40,319 bases of DNA from a virus. The notes beneath the pieces are model-generated. The model was not told the origin of the DNA and did no database searches. It saw only the letters and a list, made by a program, of their open reading frames with translations. A program made the position numbers and the translations under genes. Shown here piece after piece: positions 16,763 through 39,080 of the stretch. The stretch covers positions 1 through 40,319 of the IMG/VR virus record IMGVR_UViG_3300012931_000009; one strand, given 5' to 3'. How positions within the stretch are numbered: position 1 is the first letter of the stretch; the number at the start of each line of letters is the position of its first letter.

Positions 16763-16945
16763 TTATGCATCACGTCTATTCTTACGATAAAGCTGCTCAT
16801 ACATATTACGGCGCTCAGATGGGCTTGCGCCATATAAATGCTTACGATAGGAATTTTCCAGTTGAGTGTCATTCAACTTATACGTTCTTTTTAGTTCTGC
16901 GGGTTTGGCTTCGTGGAAGTCATTCCATGTAGGTTCTTTGCTCAT
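16763..16945 (-). CDS. Small hypothetical phage protein (60 aa)
   Basis: 60 residues starting MSKEPTWNDFHEAKPAELKR. It overlaps the 3' end of the cytosine methyltransferase by 26 bases, with AAGGA upstream (ATG at 16948 also possible). Two short helices (LNDTQLENSYRKHLY, SERRNMYEQLYRKNRRD) are rich in Arg, Tyr and Glu. Similar small proteins lie beside portal genes in related phages. Function unknown. Confidence 0.6.
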   Translation of the reverse strand: MSKEPTWNDFHEAKPAELKRTYKLNDTQLENSYRKHLYGASPSERRNMYEQLYRKNRRDA

Positions 16946-17813
16946 CATTAATTCCTTTAATAATGTTCATAAAAATATACGCTATTTGTGGAACAATTGC
17001 ATTACCTAAACTTTTATTTCTGTCCAATCCATGGGGTATCCCATCATCCACTCCAGGAATTGGGGGTTGATCTTTTTCCCAATTAAATTGGAATGAAGCG
17101 CCCCTATACTGTCCTGAATATCCAGTCCGTGTTTCCCATTCTTTCTGCTCGGCGATGGTTCTCGTATTGGTTTGCTCGCTTGTGATGCTGTGGGAGTTGC
17201 TAATAATCCAATCTTGAGCATTAAAAGCCTTCCAAGACTGAGGGATGAACTGTGTCCATTCTGATTGTACCGTCTCAAAGTGCCATTGCCAGTCATCTTG
17301 AAATGATCGCTTTTCCCTATAATCTGACCTATTGTAGCATCGCTCGCTGTGACTGTTGGCAATAACCCATAGCCTTTCCCTTTTGTGTGGCGCACCGATT
17401 GCGCTAGCCGGAATAAGATACGCCCGCCAATCGTAGTTTTCTCTTTCCAGATCTTCGAGTATTGGGTCAAGACAGGGAACAATCCCAGGCACGTTCTCGA
17501 GAATGACCCAATTTGGCTTGCTTTGTTTAATGATTCTGAGTGTGTCAGGCCATAAGTATCTATCATCCGAAAACCCCTTTTTCTTACCAGCAACACTAAA
17601 AGGCTGGCATGGAAAACCTGCTGTTAATAAATCTACTTGCGCCGTAAAATCCATTTTTTTAATATCATCGTAAATAATTATATCCGGCCAATGTTTAAAT
17701 AATACCTTTCTACAAAATTCATCCTTTTCACAAAATGCTATAGTCTCAATTTGAGCCCATCTTGCCGCCAACGCAAACCCGCCTATTCCACTGAATAAAT
17801 CTAAATGTTTCAT
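16920..17813 (-). CDS. DNA (cytosine-5) methyltransferase, Dcm type
   Basis: 297 residues. Motif I is LDLFSGIGGFALA (4-16), and motif IV is GFPCQPFSVAG (66-76) with catalytic Cys69. Motif VI is ENVPG (106-110), motif VIII-like GAPHKRERLWV follows, and motif X is GNAIVPQ near residue 270. It transfers a methyl group from S-adenosylmethionine to C5 of cytosine. There is no partner endonuclease, so protection from host restriction is the likely role. The start overlaps the portal stop as TAATG. The target-recognition part is short and a second frame is open across it (17006-17596). Specificity cannot be read. Confidence 0.88.
   Translation of the reverse strand: MKHLDLFSGIGGFALAARWAQIETIAFCEKDEFCRKVLFKHWPDIIIYDDIKKMDFTAQVDLLTAGFPCQPFSVAGKKKGFSDDRYLWPDTLRIIKQSKPNWVILENVPGIVPCLDPILEDLERENYDWRAYLIPASAIGAPHKRERLWVIANSHSERCYNRSDYREKRSFQDDWQWHFETVQSEWTQFIPQSWKAFNAQDWIISNSHSITSEQTNTRTIAEQKEWETRTGYSGQYRGASFQFNWEKDQPPIPGVDDGIPHGLDRNKSLGNAIVPQIAYIFMNIIKGINDEQRTYME
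17006..17596 (-). CDS. Alternate-frame ORF inside the methyltransferase gene
   Basis: 196 codons in the +1 frame relative to the methyltransferase on the same strand. The product reads SFSRTCLGLFPVL, YSKIWKEKTTIGGRILFRLA, GLLPTVTASDA, GLLATPTASQAS and NPQFLEWMMGYPMDWTE. This ordered set (WKxK...GRLLFxLAPS, LLPTPTASDA repeats, NPxxVEWLMGxPxGWT) matches a phage protein family that I recall being annotated as methyltransferase-associated. No strong RBS is seen at 17596. It could be a real overlapping gene, or only the frame-shifted shadow of conserved methyltransferase text. Confidence 0.4.
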   Translation of the reverse strand: MLLVRKRGFRMIDTYGLTHSESLNKASQIGSFSRTCLGLFPVLTQYSKIWKEKTTIGGRILFRLAQSVRHTKGKGYGLLPTVTASDATIGQIIGKSDHFKMTGNGTLRRYNQNGHSSSLSLGRLLMLKIGLLATPTASQASKPIREPSPSRKNGKHGLDIQDSIGALHSNLIGKKINPQFLEWMMGYPMDWTEIKV

Positions 17814-21877: not shown

Positions 21878-22098
21878 TATTTGCACTCCTTAATACGATT
21901 TAAAGCAAAAATAAGATTTTCTAATTTAATATCACGTATTTCTATATCTTTTCTACCATCTCTATAATGCATCTGAATAGTTACTAAAGGTGGTTCAATG
22001 AACATATCCCTTATAACAACAAACGATGATGTATCATCATTATCAAAAGCTATATGTCTATGATCATGAGTGGATGGGATTTTGTTTGATTCAACCAT
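21877..22098 (-). CDS. Hypothetical protein (73 aa) between methyltransferase and TerS
   Basis: 73 residues from MVESNKIPSTHDHRHIAFD; the ATG at 22098 overlaps the methyltransferase stop and has GAGGTG upstream. It looks like a single small α/β domain: strands SSFVVIRDMFIEPPLVTIQM and KDIEIRDIKL, then a helix (LENLIFALNRIK). I do not recognise the family. Possibly a similar fold to the 70-residue protein at 23473, which also has two strands and a final helix. Confidence 0.6.
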   Translation of the reverse strand: MVESNKIPSTHDHRHIAFDNDDTSSFVVIRDMFIEPPLVTIQMHYRDGRKDIEIRDIKLENLIFALNRIKECK

Positions 22099-23311
22099 TA
22101 GGCACCTCATTAAATTTAATTCCATGTTTATAATTTGATAAATCGATAGATGATTCTAATATTGCATCTTTGCCTGTAAACTTTTGCCAACGGTTAACAA
22201 TAACATCGCAATAAGCGGGGGATATTTCCATCATGAAGCATTTTTTATTAATCTTTTCACAAGCAATTAAAGTGGTTCCAGATCCGCCAAACATATCTAA
22301 AATAGTTTCTGCTTTTTTACCCCACTTATCAAAAAAGTATAATCCTAGTTCTATTGGTTTTTGTGTTGGATGGCCCCAACGTGTTTTATGTTCTCCTTCT
22401 TGTCCTGTTTCCTCTCTAGCTTTAACGCCTTTCCATAATTTTCTATAAAGAGAGTAGTGATGGCGTTCTCGTGACCAACATAATTCAAAGTCACTTGCTA
22501 TTCCATCTACTGCAGCTGTACTTTTATCCCAAACAACCCATGAACCACCACGAGGCAAGCAATCAGGATAATTATCTGCTCCCCATACAAAAACTTCTTT
22601 AGCATTAATACAATGAGCATTAGATAAAATAGTTTTTAGATCAATTCCTTCATCTTCCCCATAAAATTGTGATTCACTTGATGATTTTTCATGACCATAT
22701 CGTTTTTTATAATCAGTTTCGAGATTAATTCCATAAGGCGGATCGGTATAAACCATATCAGTTTTATTACCAGCCATTAGCTTTTCAACGCTATCAATCA
22801 TCGTAGAATCACCACACATTAATCGATGATTACCCAATATCCATACATCACCCTGTCTAGTTTTAGGACTAACGGTAATAGCAGGCACATCATCGGGATC
22901 GCATTGACCCTCAATGACAGTTTCAACTTTAGGAAATTCAATATTAAATGGCTTAAAATCAAAATCAGGAAGTTTTTCTAATTCAACATTAAGCTTTATG
23001 AGGTCGGTATAGCCTTGAGCCGCAATCTCATTATCTAAAATGCGGTAAGCACTGATTTGTTCTTCGCTGAGTTCGTCTGCAATTTCGCATGGCAACAATT
23101 CAAGTCCAAGTGTCGCGGCAGCCTCATAACGCGCGTGTCCGCACACGATGACGTTATTTCTATCAAGAACAATCGGTTGTTTAAACCCGAACTGCTTAAT
23201 AGAATTGCTAATCGATTCGAGCTGCTTAATAGGATGTTGCTTGACGTTATTTTCGTACGGTTTGATTTCATGTAACGGAATCATCCGTATGTTCATTGTT
23301 GCATTTATCAT
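22091..23311 (-). CDS. ParB-domain DNA methyltransferase (N6-A/N4-C type)
   Basis: 406 residues from MINATMNIRMIPLHEIKPYE, with AAGGA seven bases before. Residues 12-90 are a ParB/sulfiredoxin-like domain (IPLHEIKPYENNVKQHP, VCGHARYEAAATLG). The methyltransferase half has motif IV TDPPYG (about 189-194), HPTQKP (314-319) and the SAM-binding DMFGGSGTTLIACE (339-352), giving a β-class order. Such phage enzymes methylate an exocyclic amino group of adenine or cytosine, often to evade restriction. No endonuclease is linked. It lies upstream of TerS, so methylation of DNA before packaging fits. Confidence 0.87.
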   Translation of the reverse strand: MINATMNIRMIPLHEIKPYENNVKQHPIKQLESISNSIKQFGFKQPIVLDRNNVIVCGHARYEAAATLGLELLPCEIADELSEEQISAYRILDNEIAAQGYTDLIKLNVELEKLPDFDFKPFNIEFPKVETVIEGQCDPDDVPAITVSPKTRQGDVWILGNHRLMCGDSTMIDSVEKLMAGNKTDMVYTDPPYGINLETDYKKRYGHEKSSSESQFYGEDEGIDLKTILSNAHCINAKEVFVWGADNYPDCLPRGGSWVVWDKSTAAVDGIASDFELCWSRERHHYSLYRKLWKGVKAREETGQEGEHKTRWGHPTQKPIELGLYFFDKWGKKAETILDMFGGSGTTLIACEKINKKCFMMEISPAYCDVIVNRWQKFTGKDAILESSIDLSNYKHGIKFNEVPNG

Positions 23312-23444
23312 TTTTGTCATCCTTGACATTTTTACTAAAAATTAAATCGTATGCATTTGTAGGAACACAAATAGCTATTACGTCCTGAAATATTTTTTCT
23401 TCAGGTTCGCTATCCCAAATAATTATTTCTTGTGCTTTTTGCAT
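23268..23444 (-). CDS. Small acidic ORF overlapping the methyltransferase start
   Basis: 58 residues (MQKAQEIIIWDSEPEEKIFQ to NNEHTDDSVT) with AAGG upstream. It overlaps the methyltransferase start by 44 bases and the preceding 17-residue ORF by 22. The N-terminal half could form one strand-helix unit (IIIWDSEPEEKIFQDVIAI) and the rest is polar. Spacing and RBS support translation. No family recognised. Confidence 0.5.
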   Translation of the reverse strand: MQKAQEIIIWDSEPEEKIFQDVIAICVPTNAYDLIFSKNVKDDKNDKCNNEHTDDSVT

Positions 23445-25427: not shown

Positions 25428-25787
25428 TCATGCTCTCATACCCAGCTTCTGCTTAATCTCTGACATATAATGTAAAGCTGTTTCTTTTTTAGCTAGATTA
25501 GGCTCAACATCGAACGCCTGGGGATAAGGCACGACTATATTCTTGGCATAGTGAAAAAAGTCCATCACGGTAGGAGGCCGCGCAGAGAGATATTCCGCGT
25601 CCTTCTTGCAACGCAGCAATTGTATTTTTATCTCATCATAAGTAAGTCCTGTCAGACCGCCTTTCCAGACTGTCTTGTAGAAATCTTCTACACGAGGATT
25701 TTTCAGGGGTTCTGTCCAGCGCTCACCATAAAACTGCGCCATGCAGTTGAATAGCTTGTCAATCCAGTCCATTGGAATTGGTGTCAT
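25428..25787 (-). CDS. λ P-like replication protein (helicase loader) candidate
   Basis: 119 residues. The pattern WIDKLFNCMAQFYGERWTEP, then VWKGGLTGLTYDEIKIQLLR and ARPPTVMDFFHYAKN matches the conserved N-terminal part of short λ P-like proteins (LFxxMxxxYGxxW...WxxGLxxLTxxxIxxxLxxC...PPTxxxFxxxC). λ P brings host DnaB to the O-bound origin. This protein is half the λ P length and lacks the C-terminal DnaB-binding half, so it may be a shorter variant. It lies in the same leftward block as the initiator gene. Confidence 0.55.
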   Translation of the reverse strand: MTPIPMDWIDKLFNCMAQFYGERWTEPLKNPRVEDFYKTVWKGGLTGLTYDEIKIQLLRCKKDAEYLSARPPTVMDFFHYAKNIVVPYPQAFDVEPNLAKKETALHYMSEIKQKLGMRA

Positions 25788-27492: not shown

Positions 27493-28191
27493 CTAATATC
27501 TTGGTTGATTATCATAACGCCTAACTTGCCCTTTTTGATCTTCATAAACTCGTTTAGGCTTTTCTCTGTTTAAAAACTTTTCAAAAGTAAGCTGCCAATC
27601 ATCTGATTTTGTCTCATACTCTTTTGAAACCTTGGCAAATTTATCAAGTAAATAGACTTCAGTGTTATTAGTTTTTTTGGCAACTATAGATAATAACTCA
27701 CGCCGTTTATCATCTGGAAAAAAATCATCTGGGTATAGGTATAAATCAACAGAGCTCTCTTTTTTTATTTCTTTATTTAACTTCTTTATATTATGTCTCG
27801 CTAAGTCGAGACCCTGCCTCTCGCTAAGTCGAGACCCTCCTCTCGCTAAGTCGAGACCCTGAGAGTTTTTTGAACTATCATCTTTAGAGTTATCCCCAGC
27901 TTTATTTTCTATCTCAATTTTCTGTTCTGGTTGAACAAGATACCGCTTTACTCCTTTGTAAACTCTTTTTAACTCGTTATGTTTTTCAAAGAATGTAAAA
28001 GCATCATTCAAGGTTGAATCTGATTTTATTCCCGCTCTTTCCATGATGACGTTGTTTTTTAAATAACATTGCTTCCCATGGTTCCAAAACTGAAAAATTG
28101 TTTCATAAACTCTCAAATAGGATAATTGAAGATCAGGGAGCTCTAAAATTCTGGATGGAACGATAAAAAAAGCGGATTTGTATTCTGACAT
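27493..28191 (-). CDS. Replication initiator-like protein with embedded iterons
   Basis: 232 residues from MSEYKSAFFIVPSRILELPD; the ATG at 28191 has AAAGGA upstream, unlike the longer frame from 28290. The first 110 residues form a winged-helix domain (SYLRVYETIFQFWNHGKQCY, IMERAGIKSDSTLNDAFTFF, NELKRVYKGVKRYLV) like phage and plasmid replication initiators. A variable linker (residues 120-155) is encoded by three 20-bp iterons. A helical C-terminal part ends with a basic tail. By analogy with λ O, it would bind the iterons and melt the nearby AT-rich tract. The λ O analogy rests on arrangement, not on sequence identity. Confidence 0.6.
   Translation of the reverse strand: MSEYKSAFFIVPSRILELPDLQLSYLRVYETIFQFWNHGKQCYLKNNVIMERAGIKSDSTLNDAFTFFEKHNELKRVYKGVKRYLVQPEQKIEIENKAGDNSKDDSSKNSQGLDLARGGSRLSERQGLDLARHNIKKLNKEIKKESSVDLYLYPDDFFPDDKRRELLSIVAKKTNNTEVYLLDKFAKVSKEYETKSDDWQLTFEKFLNREKPKRVYEDQKGQVRRYDNQPRY
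27759..27860. repeat. Putative origin: three iterons and AT-rich tract
   Basis: TCTCGCTAAGTCGAGACCCT occurs exactly three times at 27796-27815, 27819-27838 and 27841-27860, separated by 3 and 2 bases. Each unit has an inner dyad TCTCG-N6-CGAGA. Directly left (27759-27795) is a pyrimidine-rich, AT-rich 37-base tract. Iterons next to an AT-rich tract inside the initiator gene is the λ ori plan. Confidence 0.75.
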
Positions 28192-28239
28192 ACTAAAATT
28201 CCTTTCATGTGGGGGGTTGACCAGATCCATGGGCAACGT

Positions 28240-28274
28240 ATAATAGGCGTTGCACGTGTTGGTTCTGGAGAACC
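28240..28274 (-). promoter_or_regulatory. Leftward early promoter region with a palindromic operator
   Basis: On the minus strand a -10 TATTAT (28240-28245) lies about 50 bases before the initiator start. The -35 is poor, and GGTTCT-GG-AGAACC (28261-28274), a perfect 6+6 dyad, covers that position. A regulator bound there could repress or activate. Confidence 0.5.
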
Positions 28275-28285
28275 GTATTGTTAAG

Positions 28286-28312
28286 TGCACCCTGTCTAGT
28301 AAACGGGGTGCA
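28286..28312. other. Hairpin in the divergent early control region
   Basis: TGCACCC / GGGTGCA forms a 7-bp stem with a 13-base loop. It lies beside the GGTTCT dyad in the 307-base region between divergent genes (28192-28498). The rest of that region holds only the repeats and promoter elements noted separately. Confidence 0.45.
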
Positions 28313-28397
28313 TGTCGTAAAACCCCTCCATCTTACTCTATTCTCACCCCGAAACAACAGCCCTTCTAAACTCTTTATTTACATAAAAAATACACAA

Positions 28398-28433
28398 ACG
28401 CCGATGACGCCGATTGCGCCGAACACGCCGAAA
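28398..28433. repeat. Four tandem 9-bp repeats (RCGCCGANN)
   Basis: ACGCCGATG, ACGCCGATT, GCGCCGAAC and ACGCCGAAA run head to tail without spacers. They lie 65 bases before the rightward RHH gene and beside a TATAAT at 28449-28454. They look like a cluster of binding sites on nearly one face of the helix, or a second iteron set. Confidence 0.6.
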
Positions 28434-28498: not shown

Positions 28499-28684
28499 AT
28501 GACTGACAAAATTAAAAGTAACAATGATGTGCGTATAATTACAGATGTTACAAAAGAGTGCAGAAAATCACTGCGTATACTAGCTATACAAAAAGATACA
28601 ACTTTGCCATTAATAGTCAAAGATATACTTGAACGCGCGATGAGTAAAAAAGTTAATAATGTACAAGAGGTAAATGGTGAGTGA
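28499..28684 (+). CDS. RHH-type small regulator (61 aa)
   Basis: 61 residues: MTDKIKSNNDVRIITDVTKE, then helices CRKSLRILAIQKDTTLPLIV and KDILERAMSKK. A strand followed by two helices (KSLRILAIQKD...LPLIVKDILE) fits the CopG/Arc ribbon-helix-helix fold. No clear RBS precedes it, so translation may start on a short leader. It begins the rightward cluster opposite the initiator operon and could control the divergent region. Confidence 0.6.
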   Translation: MTDKIKSNNDVRIITDVTKECRKSLRILAIQKDTTLPLIVKDILERAMSKKVNNVQEVNGE

Positions 28685-28898
28685 CATCATCAAAAGAAAA
28701 ATCTATTTTATAAAAGACGTAGAAAAAATAATAGGTAGAAATAGGCTTACATTAAGAAGATGGTGGAACAAAGATCTTTTTCCAAAGCCTACGTTAATAA
28801 ATAATCAATTAGCATGGTCGGCTTCCACTATAAATGAATGGATAAGTGATAATTTTAAAGATGATTACGAAAATTTTGTCTCGTCTGATTATGACTAG
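28674..28898 (+). CDS. AlpA-like HTH regulator (74 aa)
   Basis: 74 residues. KRKIYFIKDVEKIIGRNRLT and LRRWWNKDLFPKPTLINNQL form a winged HTH of the AlpA/excisionase type, ending with an acidic tail. It overlaps the RHH gene by 11 bases and has AAGAGG upstream. The wing resembles the HTH protein at 26532, so the two are likely paralogous. Candidate excisionase or regulator of integrase. Confidence 0.65.
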   Translation: MVSDIIKRKIYFIKDVEKIIGRNRLTLRRWWNKDLFPKPTLINNQLAWSASTINEWISDNFKDDYENFVSSDYD

Positions 28899-29020: not shown

Positions 29021-29197
29021 ATGATTAAAAAACTACTATACTATATACTTATATGGAGCATTGTGTATGTTCCTATTTATTTCGTTTATGAATATAGAGA
29101 TAAAATAAATTCATTTATATATTCATTTGTATTTGCTTTTCTTTGGTCATGGTTTGTGTGGGATATTGATAAGATAATAAAACAGTTTAGATCGTAA
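29021..29197 (+). CDS. Small membrane protein (58 aa)
   Basis: 58 residues with two hydrophobic segments: LLYYILIWSIVYVPIYFVYE and FIYSFVFAFLWSWFVWDI, joined by a charged loop. Very aromatic. It overlaps the 3' end of the converging ATP-grasp gene by 11 bases. Possibly an exclusion protein expressed from the rightward regulator cluster; inferred from topology only. Confidence 0.5.
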   Translation: MIKKLLYYILIWSIVYVPIYFVYEYRDKINSFIYSFVFAFLWSWFVWDIDKIIKQFRS

Positions 29198-30071
29198 ACC
29201 ATTCAATAATAGTATCATATATAGCATTCCCTTCAATCTCATCCTCAACACCACCATCAATAGACGGATTATCATTGATCTCAATGACATAAGCGCTCCC
29301 ACTAGATTCTTTAAGGTCAATACCATATAACCCGTCTGTGAGCAGTCTATTGCATTTTTCTGCTTCTGCCAATACATGCAATGGTATATCTTCAAACTTA
29401 ACACATTCGTGTTTACCATCAATATAATCGCCCTTACGGTCGTATTTAATGATCTTCCAATCATCATTGACCATATAGTATTTAACAACAAATAGGAATT
29501 TATGGTTAAACAGGACAATTCGCCAGTCAAAGTCAGTCTGTATGAATTCTTGGCATATAAGATCTTTATGTTTTTGTCCGCCATAAAACCATAGGTTATG
29601 AAGTGTATCAGCGAGTTCTATTTTATTATGGCATTTAAAGACCCCTTGAGAGAAACATGAATCAGGTATCTTAACAACACAAGGGTAAGGCAAATCATCA
29701 ATTTTAGAAGCGTCCCAACGTATTTTCCATGTTTTCGGATGAGATATGTTGTGTTTATAAAACAACTCCTCTTGCCAAATCTTATTACACCCCTGCTGGA
29801 TAGACATAGGACTATCTATAACCTTTAAACCTAACGCAGATGCCGCTATAGCGAATTCATATGTATAATTGCTTGGGTGAGTAGTATCCCTAATGAAAAG
29901 ACCATCAAAGTCAGACAATAGATCAATATCGTTTTGTTTAAGAATAGTGGGGTATATTTTATGGCGTATTGCTGACTCGCAAAAACGATCAATAGCAGCA
30001 TTATTAGAGGGGGAATACTTAGCAGTCTCATCATAGAGTATTGCAAGTTTAAGCCAGTCATCCTTTGGCAT
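29187..30071 (-). CDS. RimK-like ATP-grasp ligase
   Basis: 294 residues. The fold is recognisable from VVKIPDSCFSQGVF (132-145, nucleotide-binding loop), LICQEFIQTDFDWRIVLFN (171-189), YGIDLKE (249-255) and the metal-binding VIEINDNPSID (262-272). ATP-grasp enzymes join a carboxylate to an amine through an acyl-phosphate. The RimK branch adds amino acids or peptides to proteins or small molecules. The ending EINDNPSIDGGVEDE is closest to RimK-like proteins that carry an extra N-terminal domain. The gene overlaps the GNAT gene by 14 bases. Substrate unknown. Confidence 0.85.
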   Translation of the reverse strand: MPKDDWLKLAILYDETAKYSPSNNAAIDRFCESAIRHKIYPTILKQNDIDLLSDFDGLFIRDTTHPSNYTYEFAIAASALGLKVIDSPMSIQQGCNKIWQEELFYKHNISHPKTWKIRWDASKIDDLPYPCVVKIPDSCFSQGVFKCHNKIELADTLHNLWFYGGQKHKDLICQEFIQTDFDWRIVLFNHKFLFVVKYYMVNDDWKIIKYDRKGDYIDGKHECVKFEDIPLHVLAEAEKCNRLLTDGLYGIDLKESSGSAYVIEINDNPSIDGGVEDEIEGNAIYDTIIEWFTI

Positions 30072-30498
30072 TTTGGTTTAAATCCTTTCTCATTAAAATA
30101 GCAGACTTACCATCTTTATAGTAATTATGCTTTATTCCATAGGGTTTGTAACCATGTTTTGTATAGAAATTTATGGCTTTATTATTGCCTTTTTTGACTT
30201 CAAGTTTAATGGTATCTTTATTTAGAATAGTACATACAAAATCCTCTGCGCGTTCAAGTAAAATGCTACCTATACCATCATTAGAAGGATAGGCAGCTAT
30301 AGAATAAATGCGCCCTGTAGATAAGACATATACATAGCCTTTTAGAAAGCCTGATTCTTCGTAAATTCTAAAATAGTTATTATTGTTTATAATAGCGTAT
30401 GAAAATTGATTGCGACTAAATCTGTGACTAGGATTGAATGATTTACTTTCGATAATTAATAATTCTGGAATGTCTTTAAGAGTAGCTGTTCTAATCAT
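30058..30498 (-). CDS. GNAT acetyltransferase (RimI-like)
   Basis: 146 residues from MIRTATLKDIPELLIIESKS, the usual GNAT opening. I chose the ATG at 30498, which overlaps the stop of the small upstream ORF as TAATG. The acetyl-CoA loop is SNDGIGSILLERAE, and motif B is LEVKKGNNKAINFYTKHGY, ending YYKDGKSAILMRKDL. It would acetylate an amine, often the N-terminus of a protein or peptide. The direct overlap with an ATP-grasp gene suggests both enzymes act on one target. Confidence 0.83.
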   Translation of the reverse strand: MIRTATLKDIPELLIIESKSFNPSHRFSRNQFSYAIINNNNYFRIYEESGFLKGYVYVLSTGRIYSIAAYPSNDGIGSILLERAEDFVCTILNKDTIKLEVKKGNNKAINFYTKHGYKPYGIKHNYYKDGKSAILMRKDLNQNAKG

Positions 30499-30626
30499 TA
30501 TAACAAATCCCAGTCCTTTAAAACAAAAGTAAACACACAGCTCGATATAAACCATTCATAATCAGACCAATGAGCAAAGTGTGATACTAATAAACAACAC
30601 ATTGAGGATATTAGCCAATATCTCAT
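30498..30626 (-). CDS. Small coupled ORF (42 aa)
   Basis: 42 residues: MRYWLISSMCCLLVSHFAHW, then DYEWFISSCVFTFVLKDW. Its start overlaps the stop of the DUF551-like gene (ATGA) and its stop overlaps the GNAT start (TAATG). It is hydrophobic and aromatic, perhaps membrane associated. It could be a substrate peptide for the two enzymes or just a coupling ORF. Confidence 0.45.
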   Translation of the reverse strand: MRYWLISSMCCLLVSHFAHWSDYEWFISSCVFTFVLKDWDLL

Positions 30627-31294: not shown

Positions 31295-31897
31295 TTATAT
31301 AAAACTCAGCGCTTGTGAAGTTATTTTCTTTAATCTCTCTGGATTGTCTTGTACGTATAGCGCAGTCATCTGTATGCTAGCATGACCCATGAGAGTGGAT
31401 ACTGCTTTTATATCAACGCCTTTTTCAATTAAGTTAGTCGCAAAGGTGCGTCTGCCGGAATGGGAGCTAGCTCTCTCAATCCCCGCCTCTTTATAAAGAA
31501 ACGAAAACCTTTTTGACAATGTTTTATTTGAAAAATGATCATTCTTTTGTGATAAAAATAAGGGTTGTTTAGGATGATAAAACTTCCTTCTTTCAATAGC
31601 TATTTGTTGACGTTCGTTAATGTATTCTTCAATAGCCTTTCTTATTTTTGGCTCTGTGAGATAGGCTTCTCTTGGCTCATCTCCTTTTGTCTTAGTAAGA
31701 TATAAAACATCCTTTACTTTGCCTTGATCATTTATAACCTGGTGTATTTTTAAAGCAGCCAATTCAATAGCTCGTAAACCAAGACCGAATGACATAAGAA
31801 CTAATAAAGTATCGCGCTTAGCAAACGGAGAAGCTGCCGTGACTGCAAGTAATCGTTTAAATTCTGATGCTGTTAAAACTGCGGCTTGTTTTGGCAT
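31295..31897 (-). CDS. int: Tyrosine recombinase / integrase (minimal catalytic type)
   Basis: 200 residues with the full active site: Arg42 (GLGLRAIELAAL), Lys69 or Lys71 (TKTKGDEP), His146 and Arg149 (SSHSGRRTFA), His172 (MGHAS) and Tyr181 (ALYVQ). The N-terminal arm- and core-binding domains of λ Int are missing; the size is that of FimB/FimE-like enzymes. RBS AGGAG. It would integrate the phage at a host att site, so the phage is temperate. No attP core is identified. Confidence 0.87.
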   Translation of the reverse strand: MPKQAAVLTASEFKRLLAVTAASPFAKRDTLLVLMSFGLGLRAIELAALKIHQVINDQGKVKDVLYLTKTKGDEPREAYLTEPKIRKAIEEYINERQQIAIERRKFYHPKQPLFLSQKNDHFSNKTLSKRFSFLYKEAGIERASSHSGRRTFATNLIEKGVDIKAVSTLMGHASIQMTALYVQDNPERLKKITSQALSFI

Positions 31898-38306: not shown

Positions 38307-39080
38307 TAAAAATTCAGTAATGACTATATAGCCATTACCACCCGCACCACCGGCAACGCTTGCGCCTGCGCCTGACGTACATCCGCCGCTGCCGCCCGCC
38401 GCTGTTCCTCCCGCAGTGCCTGTACCTTGAGAAACCAATCCTAAACCACCTCTGCCCTGATAAGGTGAATTTCCACCAGATCCATTACCAATAGGGCCGA
38501 GTGTTGTTGTCGTGCTAGTTCCATTTTCACCATTCCATCCTGTTGTACTTGCAATTATTGTACCCGTACTAACTGTAACAATTGCTGCACCTGCACCACC
38601 TGCAACCGTTGATATTGAACCGCCCCCTGGATTCCCAGAACCACCGCTTCCCCCTGTAATCGAAATTAAAGTGTCCAGCGATGTTGTTCCTCCGGCATTC
38701 CCAGGATTATTCCCAGCCGATCCAGCCGTACCACCCGCACCAATTGTTACTGTTTTCGATGCCCCAATTTGAGCAGCCGTTAATAAAACTTTAGCAAACC
38801 CACCACCTTGTCCACCGGCTCCATTTGCATTAGTAGAAGCACCACCCGCAACACCACCTCCAGCCCCCCCAGATCCAAAAACCTCTGCGATGCAATAAAC
38901 CATGCCTGCTGTCGGTGTATAAGTTCCAGACCCAACAAATGATTGAACAGCAAGTTTATTGATAGGTACAGATGTTAAAGCATTCAGATAATTTAATTGA
39001 GTTCCTGTTGACGTAACAGAGGTTGCTCCGACAGTAAATGGAGTTGCAAGAGTATTATTGATTGAGTTATTTGTTGCCAT
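38298..39080 (-). CDS. Glycine-rich tail adhesin
   Basis: 260 residues. The N-terminal 60 (ATPFTVGATSVTSTGTQLNY) attach to the virion or fibre. From about residue 75 to 255 the protein is a glycine-rich domain (VFGSGGAGGGVAGGAST, GAGGTAGSAGNNPGNAGGT, GGSGGCTSGAGAS). This is like the polyglycine-rich fibre-tip domains of T-even adhesins and other tail fibres. It ends in a strand (GNGYIVITEFLSS). Last gene of the late operon. High GC results from glycine codons. Confidence 0.75.
   Translation of the reverse strand: MATNNSINNTLATPFTVGATSVTSTGTQLNYLNALTSVPINKLAVQSFVGSGTYTPTAGMVYCIAEVFGSGGAGGGVAGGASTNANGAGGQGGGFAKVLLTAAQIGASKTVTIGAGGTAGSAGNNPGNAGGTTSLDTLISITGGSGGSGNPGGGSISTVAGGAGAAIVTVSTGTIIASTTGWNGENGTSTTTTLGPIGNGSGGNSPYQGRGGLGLVSQGTGTAGGTAAGGSGGCTSGAGASVAGGAGGNGYIVITEFLSS

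Follow-up and report, generated by a model that had tools for sequence, protein, structure and literature searches.

Several phages carry their replication origin inside the gene of the initiator protein, as in lambda (gene O) and P22 (gene 18). In both, the iterons are imperfect inverted repeats read in several frames, an AT-rich tract lies on their C-terminal side, and the pair adjoining this tract is 23 bp apart. The four lambda iterons of about 18–19 bp lie at 39034, 39054, 39078 and 39101 (spacings of 20, 24 and 23 bp) and occupy three frames of gene O. The P22 iterons are also spaced at 20, 24 and 23 bp and occupy several frames, and those of HK225 and a Klebsiella phage are spaced at 21 bp in a single frame. 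Because iteron spacing is set by the DNA, mixed reading frames are an ordinary outcome and no new feature. Three iterons are enough for lambda, six were found in Stx phages, and an AT-rich region flanks the iterons (PMC7466680); iteron number is therefore not strict even among lambdoids. The lambda and P22 initiators are located after cro and cII/c1, and the partner of the lambda initiator is the P-type helicase loader.

A close parallel is found among the RepA_N initiators of plasmids, which combine a winged-helix N-domain, central in-gene repeats and a linker-coding origin. The N-domain of pSK41 Rep binds to four boxes near the centre of rep, and the ori part of the gene codes for the linker; the pPR9 chimera, which replicates, has a PF13730 (HTH_36) N-domain like that of a phage protein (PMC5703833). 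Further, HTH_36 replication proteins occur in phages (PHROG 270, 678, 391 and 345). The annotated initiation gene of an isolate, Acinetobacter phage Abp95, holds four in-gene repeats at 23, 23 and 23 bp in three frames. Similarly, Francisella phage KIRK has four repeats described as iterons inside a replication gene, a putative lambda-like origin that was proposed from a comparison with lambda (PMC7924643).

Here we analysed a viral record of 40,319 bases (the window, meaning this whole stretch of DNA). Judged from sequence comparison, three repeats in it are very probably the iterons of a phage replication origin that lies inside its own initiator gene, in the stretch that encodes the linker. 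The features concerned are the following.

27493–28191, minus strand: initiator gene, 232 aa (predicted winged-helix N-domain, disordered linker and C-terminal helical domain)
27907–28191, minus strand: part encoding the predicted winged-helix DNA-binding domain, residues 1–95 (predicted structure, fold match, HTH co-variation)
27841–27860, minus strand: iteron, first in coding order (dyad 27841–27856; encodes QGLDLAR)
27819–27838, minus strand: middle iteron (dyad 27819–27834; other frame, GSRLSE)
27796–27815, minus strand: iteron adjoining the AT-rich tract (dyad 27796–27811; encodes QGLDLAR)
27759–27795, no strand assigned: AT-rich tract, 86.5% AT, on the C-terminal side of the iterons; proposed unwinding element
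27565–27714, minus strand: part encoding C-terminal helices, residues 160–209 (middling-confidence model; proposed loader/helicase contact)
25428–25787, minus strand: P-like helicase loader gene, 119 aa (profile and fold match)

The original prediction described three identical 20-bp repeats at spacings of 23 and 22 bp, each with a TCTCG-N6-CGAGA dyad, beside an AT-rich tract of 37 bases, and all of these elements were recovered. The repeat TCTCGCTAAGTCGAGACCCT is present in three exact copies, starting at 27796, 27819 and 27841; read along the gene, they follow one another at 22 and then 23 bp. Its 5-bp dyad with a 6-bp centre is perfect in all three, and 37-mers as AT-rich as the tract make up 0.8% of the record. 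No further copy was found elsewhere in the record even with 3 mismatches allowed, and the repeat was absent from every shuffled sequence; the triple has 60/60 identities, as compared to 40 in the best of 15 codon shuffles. An exact 16-mer search of viral contigs gave one match, in a T4-like contig that carries the sequence only once, which was taken as chance.

Reading along the minus strand, the gene crosses the iterons as ...NSQGLDLARGGSRLSERQGLDLARHNIKKLNKE..., with QGLDLAR from the outer copies and GSRLSE from the middle one; a distance of 45 bp, or 15 codons, separates the outer copies, which explains their identical peptide. The predicted reading in two frames thus stands as a description, but not as an exceptional feature, since the lambda and P22 iterons are likewise of mixed frame. 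The GC skew, proposed as a check, was uninformative, with no turn at 27.8 kb and a cumulative minimum at about 34–35 kb, where gene orientation switches.

The 232-residue protein starts from an ATG at 28191 that is preceded by AAAGGAA, which resembles a ribosome site; a longer alternative reading frame of 265 residues has a GTG start. In the structure model, the winged helix (residues 1–95) is confident, the linker (residues 107–154) is disordered and corresponds to the part encoded by the iterons and the AT-rich tract, and the C-terminal helical part is of middling confidence. The window protein had no family at E 0.01 in Pfam, PHROG or NCBIfam, its match to PF13730 on its own was weak (0.16), no match to it was found among the proteins of phage and plasmid records, and a profile search of PDB sequences returned chance matches only. 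The top row in the fold comparison was 4pql_A (pSK41 Rep; Z 9.3, rmsd 5.4 over 89 residues), which ranks only just above other winged helices and is effectively tied with them.

Related genes were found at 28 loci, two of which (L027 and L028) are alike; they include the genome of Legionella londiniensis and an environmental bin labelled Bacteroidetes. A survey of 143 genomes of the family to which L. londiniensis belongs found no further member, and when viral contigs were scanned a second time, using the N-domain profile, only known contigs were returned. Among 27 members, phrog_270 (replication initiation protein) was matched by 20, PF13730 in the N-domain by 18 (best 3.1e-6) and phrog_678 (replication initiation, O-like) by 13. 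Most members thus resemble the HTH_36 phage replication proteins, from which the group differs in that the window protein falls below profile thresholds and in that the family mostly has three iterons at 22 + 23 bp and an N-domain signature, YETIFQFW. The RepA_N domain (PF06970) was not matched by any of the 27 at E 0.01. The family also differs from RepA_N initiators in being carried by phages, with genes for P-type loaders or DnaB adjoining in relatives.

In most related loci, a direct-repeat detector that is blind to dyads scored the triple well above codon shuffles. Dyads were tabulated in 25 genes, including that of the window and leaving aside L029, with repeats at 22 + 23 bp and no clear dyad, and L007, with weak dyads. 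Three dyads at 22 + 23 bp were found in 17 genes, three at other spacings in six and two only in two, some positions in the unevenly spaced relatives having been picked by eye from dyad lists. In 23 of the 25, the pair that adjoins the AT-rich tract has a spacing of 23 bp, and in all 25 the tract lies on the C-terminal side of the dyads. The 40 bp past the last dyad, which frequently start with CATAAT, average 85% AT, as compared to 64% in the rest of the genes. The arms themselves differ between relatives (TCTCG, TATCG, TACCG, GTCCG, GTCTA, GGCCG, GGGCG and others), with thirteen different left arms in the family, and the arm type of the window, TCTCG paired at 22/23 bp, was found only in the L004 contig. 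The comparison of iterons in relatives that had been proposed as a check came out in favour of the origin: the layout is kept and the arm sequences differ.

Co-variation of these half-sites with the protein was assessed by correlating half-site distance with residue windows after removal of overall domain distance (partial correlation, 500 permutations). Correlations of 0.37, 0.52 and 0.41 were obtained for residues 43–48, 55–60 and 61–66, none of which was reached in 500 permutations, and a weaker one of 0.22 for residues 85–90 (12/500); these permutation counts are not strict probabilities because the related sequences are non-independent, their tree is poorly resolved and ancestry inflates such tests. 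Other windows of the domain gave nothing notable. In the model, the correlated windows cover the likely recognition helix (58–70) and the start of the preceding helix (46–53). Despite the inflation from shared ancestry, the peak still falls at the expected DNA-reading surface, which lends indirect support to binding of the dyads by the winged helix of the initiator.

The gene just downstream of the initiator in relatives encodes a lambda P loader at six loci (PF06992, E down to 8e-35) and a DnaB helicase at two, and PHROG identifies P-like genes in two more relatives. In the window, the P-like gene is short and non-adjacent, 1.7 kb from the initiator gene. Its profile match to P has an E of 1.7e-4 and a probability of 49.5. 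The best fold match of its model is lambda P bound to DnaB (Z 10.6; next entry 4.5), which is supportive and not independent because P homologues were in the alignment from which the model was built. Together, the spacing, the co-variation of dyads and HTH, the AT-rich tract, the loader and DnaB neighbours and the P-like fold support the prediction of a lambda-type origin in the initiator gene.

The window shares with lambda and P22 the proposed placement of the origin within the initiator gene, the AT-rich tract on the same side and the 23-bp pair next to it, and with lambda the loader partner; it differs from lambda in having three iterons of 20 bp at 22/23 bp. No alignment to lambda O was obtained with hhalign, and none of the 27 members matched an O-family Pfam entry. 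The locus would be lambda-type in layout and partner, in the sense that it works like lambda, and not by proven membership of the lambda O family.

In the most likely mechanism, the 232-residue initiator would bind each TCTCG-N6-CGAGA dyad through its winged-helix N-domain, probably as a dimer. The co-variation speaks for this initial step, and the later ones, from packing and unwinding to helicase loading and the start of replication, are inferred from lambda and the RepA_N systems. Proteins bound 22–23 bp apart (about two helical turns) would pack into one complex, which would strain and open the AT-rich tract beside the iterons. The DnaB helicase of the host may then be recruited by the C-terminal domain together with the P-like loader.

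The surroundings of the initiator gene include several further elements. On the plus strand, 28217–28313 holds a promoter match, TTGACC-16-TATAAT (11/12), which points away from the initiator and lies about 25 bp from its start codon; it is conserved in L004 and L021 and appears as TTGATT in L007 and L006, with the overall number of matches in the promoter scan near the initiator gene being at chance level. The match is followed by two hairpins in the window as well as in L004 and in L021 (z −2.2 to −3.5). This position upstream of the initiator recalls oop of lambda and P22, and pSK41 also has an antisense RNA (PMC5703833); an Rfam search of the window gave no match. A possible operator at 28398–28431, made up of the 9-bp unit CGCCGANNN in four near-copies, lies between the initiator gene and the small divergent genes. 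The small genes lie on the plus strand, one with a very weak ribbon-helix-helix match (28499–28684, E 0.15) and one AlpA- or excisionase-like (28674–28898; PF05930 E 0.0022, phrog_66 E 1.4e-6).

Farther away on the minus strand are overlapping genes for a RimK-like ATP-grasp protein (29187–30071, E 3.1e-6) and a GNAT acetyltransferase (30058–30555, E 1e-6), a 200-aa tyrosine recombinase that is essentially the catalytic domain alone (31295–31897; PF00589, residues 7–187) and a protein that combines a ParB-N domain and an N6/N4 DNA methylase in one chain (22091–23329). A C5 cytosine methylase gene lies at 16920–17813.

The dyads could instead be operators that control the initiator gene itself or copy number, or a handcuffing or incompatibility site, with replication starting elsewhere. 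The co-variation fits this reading, as it points to binding by the HTH of the same gene and not by itself to replication, and so does the promoter-like site upstream that near relatives conserve. However, the dyads are located about 330 bp into the gene and not near the promoter region, and an AT-rich tract always follows them immediately. In this place lambda, P22 and pSK41 have true origins (PMC7466680, PMC5703833), and loader or helicase genes adjoin in relatives. We therefore regard a purely regulatory role as unlikely.

Still less probable is that the repeats serve the protein, as a linker peptide (QGLDLAR twice) produced by tandem duplication, their DNA identity being a trace of recent copying. 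The outer copies do share their encoded peptide and the linker is disordered, but the off-frame middle copy is nearly as conserved, with copy identities within 16 genes of 0.91 in frame and 0.88 off frame. Mismatches between in-frame copies fall on the three codon positions 7, 11 and 10 times, with no excess at the third. The linker peptides vary between relatives, whereas dyad pairing and spacing stay: 95% of arm cells are complementary across relatives despite the differing arms, double changes number 34 as compared to 8.0 in shuffles, and pairing falls to 17–42% when the partner arm is slid by 1–3 columns. In 16 genes the dyad register was set by repeat position, and elsewhere by the dyad itself; a small part of this pairing signal hence reflects the choice of the best register. 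The conserved spacing and the co-variation within dyads support the predicted selection on the DNA of the iterons and not on the protein.

Short palindromic repeats of such kind are common in bacterial genomes, but the idea that a mobile or host repeat landed in the gene without a replication function is hardly credible, given that the record holds no other copy, that the sole other exact match in viral contigs is a chance single copy and that in relatives the same place and spacing are occupied by unrelated arms.

The layout assigned here to a replication origin also proved recognizable without any protein information. In viral contigs, a scan for pairs of GTCCG-N6-CGGAC dyads at 22/23 bp found 26 stretches, six of them known family members, as compared to two stretches each for the controls with the same dyads at 29/30 bp and with a permuted arm at 22/23 bp. 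Among ten scanned stretches outside the family, HTH_36 was found upstream of the dyads in nine (E < 0.01) and PHROG replication-initiation families were matched by eight, which indicates that the layout extends well past the family. For L069, L077 and L089, the HTH was assessed by eye alone, and L068 and L086 did not fit the dyad layout. Probable origins inside HTH-type initiator genes can be traced from DNA alone through dyad and spacing.

In-gene phage origins are already known; of note here are the fixed 45-bp geometry and the series of initiator–iteron specificities. For this uncultured phage, the probable origin is narrowed down to about 100 bp. Tentatively, the family may represent a natural series of matched initiator–iteron pairs, in which a few HTH residues (about 45 and 57–65) set the half-site, packing fixes the 22 + 23 bp spacing and replication is free of cross-talk between phages whose arms differ, and in which antisense RNA from just upstream may limit the supply of initiator in near relatives of the window. 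From the thirteen left arms, which co-vary with the recognition helix, a specificity code linking initiator to iteron could be derived, a code that bears on the compatibility of co-resident phages and plasmids.
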